A stretch of 64,000 nucleotides of DNA from an uncultured Sterolibacterium sp. GTDB taxonomy: Bacteria; Pseudomonadota; Gammaproteobacteria; Burkholderiales; Rhodocyclaceae. How positions within the stretch are numbered: position 1 is the first letter of the stretch; each line of letters starts with the position of its first letter. The notes below the pieces were generated by a model. That model had not been told where the DNA came from and searched no databases. It saw only the letters and a list, made by a program, of their open reading frames with translations. Shown one piece after another: positions 7,119-9,059 of this stretch. The stretch lies in NCBI GenBank assembly GCA_903930535.1, contig CAIYYX010000104.1:1-64000 (forward strand). Reading direction: 5' to 3'. Made by a program: the position numbers and the translations under genes.

Positions 7119-7547
7119 TCAAACAACCAGCGTTTTTGGCTGCTGCGCGGCATGAGGATGCTCAGTGCCGGCGTAGCATTTCATTTTCTTCAACATCGCG
7201 TAGCCCAGCGGGCCCTTGGGCAGCATGCCCTTGACCGCTTTCTCCAAGATACGGCCAGGGAAGCGCTGCTGCAGCTTTTTGAAATTTGTTTCGTAAATGC
7301 CGCCGGGGTAGCCGGTGTGACGATAATAGGTCTTGTCCTCGGCCTTATTGCCGGTGACTCGCAGTTTCTCGACATTGACGACAACGATATAGTCGCCACC
7401 ATCGACGTGCGGCGTATATTCAGGCTTGTGCTTGCCGCGCAAGCGACGTGCGAGCCCGGCGGCCAGGCGGCCCAGCACCATATCGCTGGCATCGACTACG
7501 AACCAGTCGTGCGTGACCTCGTGCTGCTTGGCAGAAAAGGTTTTCAT
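7119..7547 (-). CDS. rplM: 50S ribosomal protein L13
   Basis: L13 is an early-assembly large-subunit protein that binds 23S rRNA and regulates its own operon in several bacteria. The 142-residue sequence starts [11 protein letters not shown] and carries the core [21 protein letters not shown] segment of the family. The start at 7547 is preferred over an upstream in-frame Met six codons earlier, on family length and N-terminal conservation. A strong sigma-70 promoter lies 52-81 bp upstream. Co-transcribed with rpsI. Confidence 0.98.
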
Positions 7548-7640: not shown

Positions 7641-7672
7641 AAAAAAAAGCGCAATCCCCGAAGGGTTGCGCT
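7641..7672 (-). terminator. Terminator of the candidate sRNA
   Basis: On the minus strand AGCGCAA-CCC pairs with GGG-(bulged A)-TTGCGCT around a TTCG tetraloop, followed by eight T residues. No annotated gene on this strand ends here, so it supports an independent short transcript. Confidence 0.8.
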
Positions 7673-7749
7673 AAATCCACACCAAAGGAGGAGGGTGGAG
7701 GAGACAGCGGTCAAATGCGTTTGAGGTAATGTCCAATCGCATTCCAGTT
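7641..7749 (-). ncRNA. Candidate trans-acting small RNA with anti-Shine-Dalgarno motifs
   Basis: A promoter (7756-7784) and an intrinsic terminator (7641-7672), both on the minus strand, delimit a predicted transcript of about 105-110 nt with no convincing ORF. Its middle, around 7682-7710, is pyrimidine-rich and contains the motif CTCCTCCACCCTCCTCC, which gives several CCUCC sequences complementary to Shine-Dalgarno elements. The 3' end is a GC-rich hairpin with a UUCG tetraloop and a run of eight T residues, the arrangement of Hfq-dependent sRNAs. I do not recognise it as a named sRNA. It could alternatively be an attenuated leader, but no gene in the same direction depends on it because rplM has its own promoter after the terminator. 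Confidence 0.6.
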
Positions 7750-7755
7750 AACTTT

Positions 7756-7784
7756 ATTATGCACAAATATATTGTGCATTGCAA
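7756..7784 (-). promoter_or_regulatory. Promoter with embedded palindromic operator for the candidate sRNA
   Basis: On the minus strand TTGCAA (7779-7784) and CATAAT (7756-7761) are 17 bp apart. The spacer is occupied by a perfect inverted repeat with 8-bp arms, ATGCACAA and TTGTGCAT (7759-7766 and 7772-7779), around a 5-bp A/T centre. A palindrome exactly between -35 and -10 is the classical position for a repressor. The arm spacing differs from the NtrC consensus, so the regulator is not assigned. Confidence 0.6.
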
Positions 7785-7789
7785 GGTAT

Positions 7790-7960
7790 ATTTAAATTAC
7801 TCGTAATATTATTTACCTTTCTTTGGTTTTCTGAAACATCATCTTGATATTAAACAAATAGCGACCAATTTACCGCTATATATTTAGTTTTATCAATCGG
7901 GTTTTTATCAAAAAATAATTTACTGTGAATAATTATTGTTGCGGCGCAGCATATCAACTG
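7790..7960. other. AT-rich gene-free stretch upstream of the OsmC-family gene
   Basis: About 170 bp here are strongly A/T-rich in contrast to the GC-rich surroundings and contain no supported ORF. One FNR/CRP-like element, TTGAT-ATTA-AACAA at 7844-7857, has a single mismatch to the TTGAT-N4-ATCAA consensus. Otherwise I see no definite signal. Confidence 0.5.
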
Positions 7961-8022: not shown

Positions 8023-8439
8023 ATGGAATGCAGCGTACGCTGGTTTGATGGCATGAGCTTCGTCGCAGAAACTGGCAGCGGCCACCTGGTGACGATGGAC
8101 GGTGCCCCCGATGCAGGCGGCCGTAACCTGGCGCCACGGCCTATGGAGTTGGTGCTTGCCGGCGCCGGGGGTTGCACTGCGTTCGACGTGGTCATGATTC
8201 TCAAACGCGGGCGGCAGGAGGTTACTGGCTGCGAGGTGAAGTTAAGCGCAGAGCGCGCCGACGCCGATCCCAAGGTATTCACCAGCATCCACTTTCACTT
8301 TGTCGTGAAGGGGAAGGCTCTGAAGCCCGAGGCGGTTGAACGAGCGATCAAACTCTCTGCTGAAAAATATTGCTCGGCCTCCATCATGCTGGGCAAGACC
8401 GCCGCGATCACCCACGACTGGGAGATCGTCGAGGTTTAA
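8023..8439 (+). CDS. OsmC family protein (YhfA-like)
   Basis: The product is a 138-residue OsmC/Ohr-fold protein; such proteins reduce organic hydroperoxides with a pair of cysteines. Two candidate redox cysteines are seen at C51 (GAGGCTAFD) and C117 (EKYCSAS), the spacing and motif context of the YhfA branch. The start is the ATG at 8023 preceded by GAGGAATA. The gene overlaps the convergent coq7 by 4 bp at its 3' end. Peroxidase activity is likely but the natural substrate of the YhfA subgroup is not established. Confidence 0.92.
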
Positions 8440-9059
8440 ATGCGGTAGGTGGTCTCAGTCATCAGTTTTGAGGCAAGCCGCATCAGATTTTTCACCGGCG
8501 CGGGGAGTTCATGGGCTCCGAGGCGCATCGCGGTTTGTCCGTGGCTGACTTCATCCTGCCGCATTTGCTCGAGTATTTCCCAGGAGCGGACATCTTTCTC
8601 CGGCAGCCGCGCCTTGTGGCTGTCCAGATGCGCTTCGACTTGGCGCTCGGTCTCGGCGAGAAACCCCAGACTCCATGCGTCGCCGAATTTCCCGGCCACG
8701 ATTCCCATTGCCAGCGCCCCCCCATACAAAAGCGGATTGAGCAGGCTCTTTCGCCCCCCAAGTTCGGCGATACGCCGTTCGGTCCAGGCCAAATGCTCGG
8801 TTTCCTCCCACGCCGCCTGCTCAAGGGCTGTCCTGATCGCCGAATCATGCGAAGTCAGCGCCTGCCCCTGGTACAGCGCCTGGGCGCAGATCTCGCCGCA
8901 GTGATTGACGCGCATCAACGCCGCGGCGTGGTGACGTTCGGCTTCGCTGAGTTCGGCTTCGGGCAGGGTGGCGCCCGGTACGGCGCGCGCCGTCGGCGCC
9001 GGCGCGAACACCGTGCGCAAGGCCTTGTCGAACTCGCTAATCAAGCGGTCAATCGCCAT
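8436..9059 (-). CDS. coq7: Demethoxyubiquinone hydroxylase Coq7
   Basis: Coq7 is a di-iron monooxygenase performing the last hydroxylation of the ubiquinone ring. The 207-residue protein shows the paired ligand motifs of the ferritin-like fold: E56 in HCGEICAQ, the EETEH motif at residues 85-89, and a second E-x-x-H set in EVSHGQ toward the C-terminus. It is the last gene of a probable rppH-CNP1-coq7 operon, starting 15 bp after the CNP1 stop. The 3' end overlaps the convergent OsmC gene. Confidence 0.97.

Follow-up and report, generated by a model that had tools for sequence, protein, structure and literature searches.

What kind of RNA is made from the short minus-strand transcription unit between rplM and a divergent osmC-like gene, and what switches it on? 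We followed this question in the window, that is, the whole stretch of 64,000 nucleotides that was analysed, as well as in the rest of the source genome and in related genomes. The answer that we favour, with a probability of about 0.78, is that the unit encodes an anti-Shine-Dalgarno sRNA of the RF02278 family that would be repressed by PhaR, respond to PHB and work like MmgR.

A stand-alone unit of a known RNA family

The argument rests on the following features, given by their positions in the window:

7756 to 7784, minus strand: promoter, read from the sequence, with −35 TTGCAA (7779–7784), a 17-bp spacer (7762–7778) and −10 CATAAT (7756–7761)
7641 to 7749, minus strand: putative primary transcript of about 109 nt, placed by promoter spacing and terminator
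7641 to 7706, minus strand: RF02278 sRNA core, from the cmscan match and the fold; its parts from 5′ to 3′ are UGUCUCCUCC (anti-Shine-Dalgarno site 1), hairpin 1 with a CU-rich loop (site 2) and the terminator hairpin
7641 to 7672, minus strand: intrinsic terminator with a UUCG loop and eight T, from sequence and fold
7772 to 7783, minus strand: PhaR-type operator box TGCAATGCACAA, an exact match to the consensus TGCRNYGCASMA, overlapping the −35 and the left arm of the palindrome
7759 to 7779, no strand: exact palindrome ATGCACAA-TATAT-TTGTGCAT, whose left arm is part of the PhaR box
7940 to 7951, plus strand: another box of the PhaR type, TGCGGCGCAGCA, which precedes the divergent osmC-like gene, from the consensus scan
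7119 to 7547, minus strand: rplM, the downstream neighbour (Pfam PF00572)
8023 to 8439, plus strand: OsmC-like gene, the divergent neighbour (Pfam PF02566)
8436 to 9059, minus strand: coq7 (Pfam PF03232), also a neighbour of Bordetella S17

An earlier note on this DNA had described a complete stand-alone unit, and all of its parts are where that note put them: the promoter at 7756–7784, an RNA from about 7749 to 7641 and a terminator with eight T. Judged from the sequence, transcription likely starts near A7749. Read on the minus strand, the UUCG-capped hairpin lies at about 7649–7672 and the eight T at 7641–7648. The stretch of 111 nt folds with a z-score of −3.80 and its 3′ part of 68 nt with one of −4.13, and in both cases none of 200 shuffles folded equally well. 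The several CCUCC motifs announced for 7682–7710 are there as well (three CCTCC at 7687–7701, two of which overlap each other), and a role as anti-Shine-Dalgarno sites is supported, with CU-rich sites at 7697–7703 and 7687–7695.

The kind of RNA is not new. The earlier note knew of no described RNA with this layout, but an Rfam check of the window by cmscan returned RF02278, “Betaproteobacteria toxic sRNA”, a family with several experimental papers, at 7641–7706 on the minus strand (63.4 bits against a gathering score of 50 bits, covering model positions 1–64 of 64). Alignment and fold show the sequence and structural features of the family, namely UGUCUCCUCC at the 5′ end, the CU-rich loop, hairpin 1 and the terminator hairpin, and thus family membership and predicted structure are directly supported. 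The claim of novelty for the RNA fails because it belongs to RF02278, like ncS27 of Burkholderia and S17 of Bordetella. We drew no argument from covariation beyond the Rfam match; when 109 distinct copies were rapidly aligned with MAFFT, the terminator stayed unaligned and only a broken hairpin 1 was predicted, with one pair column that held C-G 45, U-G 19, U-A 14, A-U 13 and G-C 3 times. The window also contains a second known sRNA, anti-hemB (RF02837, 27904–28008, plus strand, 59.8 bits against a cut-off of 49.5).

The source genome (4.03 Mb in 289 contigs, 91.9% complete) carries three RF02278 copies above the cut-off. The two other copies, L002 (G000:C229) and L003 (G000:C177), do not adjoin rplM, which is absent within about 1.5 kb of either. 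The family is common in relatives: 34 of 41 genomes, the source genome counted, have a match (above the cut-off in 22 of 41), as do 188 of 300 genomes of the order (above it in 114 of 300).

The locus itself is old and fixed. In the window the gene order is coq7, osmC-like, sRNA, rplM, rpsI, argC. We compared it with at least 119 loci that share an exact core of 31 bases, a set that is biased to identical cores, from genomes such as Azonexus, Dechloromonas, Thauera, Zoogloea, Accumulibacter and Herbaspirillum. Among the 119 loci listed, RplM begins on the same strand within the 400 nt that follow the core start in 87, and an OsmC-like gene (89) or Coq7 (79) is found within 4 kb of the core; 20 of the 119 have none of the five neighbours that were tested. 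These counts are lower bounds, because in some cases the available sequence stops a short way beyond the core. Hence, conserved synteny is directly supported, and judged against the published coq7 neighbourhood of S17 the locus is very probably the orthologue of that gene.

A conserved PhaR-type box over the promoter

The element that stands out upstream of the core is the box at 7772–7783. Its consensus, TGCRNYGCASMA, was derived for PhaR from footprints and a promoter alignment in Bradyrhizobium (PMC6201568), and the box also fits YGCRNYGCR, the core motif reported for PhaR in Sinorhizobium (PMC12542648). The 64 kb contain two matches to the consensus, roughly the number expected by chance (mean 1.43), but both lie in the intergenic region between the sRNA and the osmC-like gene. 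From the position of the second box, the osmC-like gene may be controlled by PhaR too.

Both the match and its conservation are directly supported by the listed exact-core loci. Within 250 bp upstream, the box is present at 91 of 115 loci, against 1 of 113 downstream; within 150 bp upstream it is present at 81 of 116, where 100 shuffles gave a mean of 0.44 and a maximum of 3 (four loci were left out of the 250-bp upstream count and three out of the 150-bp one because their flanks were short). The boxes form two sharp peaks, one from −150 to 0 at the sRNA promoter and one from −350 to −200 on the osmC side. Background is low: fifty-base bins contain the box in 0 of 1805 cases between −1500 and −600 and in 7 of 2775 between +200 and +1500. 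Where 400 bp of upstream sequence are available (108 listed loci), 74 loci have a box within the nearest 150 bp, 58 have one at 150–400 and 14 have neither. The arrangement of the window, CTTGCRNYGCASMA over the −35, is shared by 20 of the 119 listed relatives, which have a CTTGC −35.

The other copies in the source genome have similar elements: L002 is preceded by an exact box 20–31 nt before the core and L003 by a near match, TGCTCTGCAGCA. Across this genome the consensus scan yields 80 sites, against 18 for the reversed pattern, and the strict 15-mer TTGYGCRNYGCASMA occurs at one site elsewhere. An exact match alone is no proof of a PhaR site, because at the two other places that we examined in the same genome, L333 and a pair in L359, the boxes sit inside coding frames. 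The pair in L359 (G000:C113:12766-12829) is about 40 bp apart, in a frame that by eye precedes a formate dehydrogenase-like gene.

Does the box follow PhaR?

If the box is a PhaR operator, it should be found where PhaR is found. The source genome encodes PhaR (TIGR01848, E 1.3e-40; DNA-binding domain PF07879, E 3.7e-30), in a gene cut by the end of its contig. PhaR (TIGR01848) was detected in 203 of the 300 genomes of the order. The sRNA and PhaR occur together in 138 of these genomes, the sRNA alone in 50, PhaR alone in 65 and neither in 47, a modest association at the level of genomes (odds ratio 2.0, p 0.007). The RNA family does not depend on PhaR: among the 188 genomes that carry the sRNA, PhaR went undetected in 50.

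The box itself follows the presence of PhaR. We took the best-scoring 150 of the listed sRNA copies in the 300-genome survey and searched 150-bp windows upstream of them. Among these best 150 copies, 112 are from genomes with PhaR, and 67 of them have the exact box upstream; of the 38 from genomes without PhaR, none has it (shuffled means 0.54 and 0.04, respectively). The box occurs in 6 of 150 downstream controls. Counted by genome, this is 58 of 77 with PhaR against 0 of 29 without, and counted by family, at least one box is found in 15 of 18 groups with PhaR against 0 of 10 groups without, four families being in both lists. With the looser core YGCRNYGCR the two upstream figures become 91 of 112 and 1 of 38, and downstream controls match in 27 of 150 cases. 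These counts ignore kinship, and the copies are related by descent, some of them in tandem with shared upstream DNA; the genomes scored as lacking PhaR are 70–100% complete, so that phaR may have been missed in some; and two copies that have no CTCC close to their start (L203, L272) remained in the counts. Box and PhaR are nevertheless directly seen to occur together.

There are exceptions. The exact box is missing before 45 of the 112 copies in genomes with PhaR; 24 of the 45 have YGCRNYGCR, and the remaining 21 carry neither form of the box. Family f8 contributes 11 of these 21, out of its 25 copies among the best 150. In family f43, two genomes with PhaR have another dyad in place of the exact box, and members of g30 and g124 with PhaR likewise have no exact box within 150 bp; contrasts inside one genus are few, and most of them tell little. 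One genome of f36 that is scored as lacking PhaR and is 85% complete keeps the loose box. Among the best 150 copies, a ATTAGANNATNCT dyad lies near the −10 of 28 of 38 copies in genomes without PhaR (L185–L217 and others), against 2 of 112 in genomes with it.

Phasin genes are classical PhaR targets. We searched the 330 nt before the domain match at the best locus of each genome (30 loci, one of which, L321, was dropped for its short flank). The consensus lies ahead of 27 of 29 phasin genes (shuffled mean 0.32, maximum 2), and it is therefore the phasin operator in this lineage. Moreover, five divergent RF02278 copies begin 12–38 nt past the stop codon of a phasin gene, that is, in the phasin 3′ UTR (L027, L031, L364, L365 and L366, from genomes G020, G011 (twice), G022 and G006). 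They score between 29.0 and 46.2 bits, under the RF02278 cut-off, and each has a (T/C)GTCTCCTCCTCC start; two of the linked phasins were confirmed by Pfam PF09361 and the others by TIGR01841. In G005, about 270 nt separate a weak RF02278 match (30.6 bits) from the phasin gene that follows it.

One could also argue that the RNA is an RF02278 sRNA whose TGCRNYGCASMA box is bound by another regulator with PhaR-like specificity. Box and PhaR are linked by sequence matches, 45 of the 112 copies just mentioned have no exact box in spite of PhaR, and the two places elsewhere in the source genome have exact matches inside coding frames, all of which would fit such a regulator. We consider it unlikely in view of the box before 27 of 29 phasin genes, its absence from all 38 copies in genomes without PhaR and the divergent RF02278 copies right after phasin genes.

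How the sRNA may be controlled

Our preferred reading remains that PhaR binds the box, and it can be put as a chain of steps. PhaR sitting at 7772–7783 over the −35 would repress the sRNA promoter and keep it silent as long as PHB is absent. An operator over the −35 is a placement typical of repression. When PHB accumulates, the granules would sequester PhaR and the sRNA would be made, much as phasin promoters in Cupriavidus are reported to open when granules take PhaR away (PMC9049629). The core at 7641–7706 is probably a processed form of about 66 nt, trimmed at 7706; we infer this processing because S17S of Bordetella is a processed form (PMC11722255). The two single-stranded CU-rich sites would then base-pair with Shine-Dalgarno regions in many mRNAs and thereby keep these from being translated. 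If the targets are mainly genes for carbon uptake and metabolism, stored carbon would slow further intake and growth. A search of the source genome for TGGAGGAGAC followed by ATG within 10 nt gave five sites, one of which is antisense to the sRNA itself. For PhaR binding, the sign of regulation, processing, use of Hfq and targets we rely on relatives in the literature, so these parts are expectations for the RNA of the window.

One of these relatives is ncS27 of Burkholderia. Its overexpression slows growth and its silencing speeds growth up (PMC5688073; PMC4603805), its homologues are higher in glucose medium than in starvation (PMC5688073), and its reported targets fit a brake on carbon uptake and metabolism (PMC10987360). 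NcS27 is also described as accumulating when growth is arrested and nutrients are lacking (PMC10987360). The targets and the higher level in glucose medium fit the proposed brake, and the accumulation on growth arrest fits a PHB signal only in part.

It is conceivable that PhaR binds and the main control still lies elsewhere, in the stringent response, nitrogen status or RNA stability, or that PhaR activates the promoter. The NmsRs of Neisseria are under RelA (PMC5362039), mmgR is also under NtrC (PMC8401924), and PhaR may act positively on some genes of B. diazoefficiens (PMC6201568). Against this stands the overlap of the box with the −35, like that of the footprinted site in the phaP4 promoter of B. 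diazoefficiens (PMC6201568), and we regard main control elsewhere, or activation, as quite unlikely.

The earlier note had placed the switch at the palindrome and proposed that a dedicated repressor binds it. The palindrome is perfect and well placed: it fills the promoter spacer and is exact at 7759–7779. It is not conserved, however, and was absent from the 150-bp upstream stretches of all 116 listed exact-core relatives, for which reason we rejected it as an operator. Its left arm alone recurs in relatives, while its right arm is found in none of the 20 listed relatives that share the box-over-−35 layout of the window. A single palindrome of this kind is also unremarkable, because the window holds 30 perfect palindromes with 8-bp arms and gaps of 3–8, compared with 7–14 in each of five shuffled windows. 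A dedicated repressor at this site is thus very unlikely. What is conserved together with the CCUCC motifs and the hairpin is, in most relatives, the PhaR box. The idea of an operator at the promoter is thus supported, but since the box in question is of the PhaR type and lies across the −35, the regulator is probably the general PHB sensor PhaR and not a dedicated one.

The “ORF-less” transcript of the earlier note needs a small correction. A frame of 23 codons opens with ATG at 7742 and ends at 7671 (7671–7742, minus strand, with the tail ...CLLHPPPLVWI), but in the 116 listed relatives it stays open no more often than the other frames do, and with no frame bias there we rejected a coding frame through the core. 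The idea that the locus is an rplM leader or attenuator, or a small-protein gene, draws on the nearness of rplM (no more than 400 nt downstream in 87 of 119 listed relatives) and on this frame, and it has next to no chance of being right given that the terminator is followed by a separate promoter-like site ahead of rplM (TTGACA-18-TAGAAT), as the earlier note had also concluded, that two of the three genome copies have no rplM within about 1.5 kb, and that relatives do not favour the frame.

Significance

The RNA described here adds a member to a family that was already known, and what looks new is the assignment of its operator. The open-access literature, covered in part and mostly at the level of abstracts, yielded no report that ties RF02278 to PhaR. 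For Burkholderia cenocepacia, the regulator that governs the accumulation of sRNAs, the growth-slowing ones included, is stated as unknown (PMC5688073), and in 2021 PHB riboregulation in Cupriavidus necator was said to be still undeciphered (PMC8401924). A PhaR-type operator that tracks PhaR offers a specific and testable answer to these two questions and to that of the S17 promoter. If our reading is true, then the sRNA is probably switched on as the cell fills with carbon reserves, which would be relevant for strains used in bioplastic production.

A broader view, which we hold to be somewhat more probable than its opposite, is that RF02278 supplies the PhaR regulon of Betaproteobacteria with an RNA arm. 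By titrating PhaR, PHB granules would switch on a brake that acts at translation and limits carbon uptake. A divergent copy in a phasin 3′ UTR is an addition in some lineages, and lineages without PhaR would have rewired the promoter to an ATTAGA-type dyad.

Comparison with known systems

Among the closest known systems are the “double-hairpin RNAs” of Burkholderia, ncS03, ncS05, ncS27 and ncS62 (Sass 2017, PMC5688073). The RNA of the window resembles them in matching the covariance model over its full length, in its two hairpins and CU-rich sites, and in having a terminator of its own and several copies per genome; it differs in that its operator is here identified as PhaR-type. Three of the four Burkholderia homologues have an upstream motif in common (PMC5688073), and this may be the same element as the PhaR-type box. 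Herbaspirillum is reported to have four members of RF02278 (PMC7011215).

The toxicity of the RF02278 family was reportedly named by Kimelman in 2012. “Toxic” is not true of every member, because overexpression of S17S left the exponential growth of E. coli BL21 unimpaired (PMC11722255). Bordetella S17 is an RNA of 190 nt from which RNase E makes an abundant form of 67 nt; it co-precipitates with Hfq, adjoins coq7 and has 27 nt that are conserved across Betaproteobacteria, and S17S represses directly in a lacZ reporter (PMC11722255). The authors postulate that the promoter PS17 is repressed in Bvg− mode (PMC11722255). Our locus is like S17 of Bordetella pertussis in its conserved 5′ core, coq7 neighbour, TTGC-type −35 and 17-bp spacer, and a further likeness is the presumed repression of the promoter, which for S17 is postulated in one mode. 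The two differ in length, about 190 nt for S17L compared with a primary RNA of probably about 109 nt here, and S17 was studied as a Bvg-mode sRNA.

With NmsRA and NmsRB of Neisseria, which repress metabolic mRNAs and are hard to clone in E. coli (PMC5362039), the RNA shares two anti-Shine-Dalgarno regions. In NmsRA the two CU-rich sites pair with Shine-Dalgarno regions, as supported by mutations (PMC5362039). A difference is their control by RelA (PMC5362039), and against the NmsR model (RF02877) our RNA scores 30.4 bits with a cut-off of 52, so it is not a member by score.

The same is true of the mmgR model (RF00519), with 20.8 bits against a cut-off of 41. MmgR (alpha-r8) of Sinorhizobium meliloti is nonetheless the functional parallel: a small sRNA that is Hfq-dependent, controlled by PhaR and linked to phasin levels, with mmgR also under NtrC (PMC8401924), and whose gene is bound by PhaR (PMC12542648). 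A PhaR/AniA promoter box and a tie to PHB belong to that system, and a PhaR-type box is likewise present in ours. This suggests that alpha- and betaproteobacteria share a PHB sensor that controls small RNAs of different families by score.
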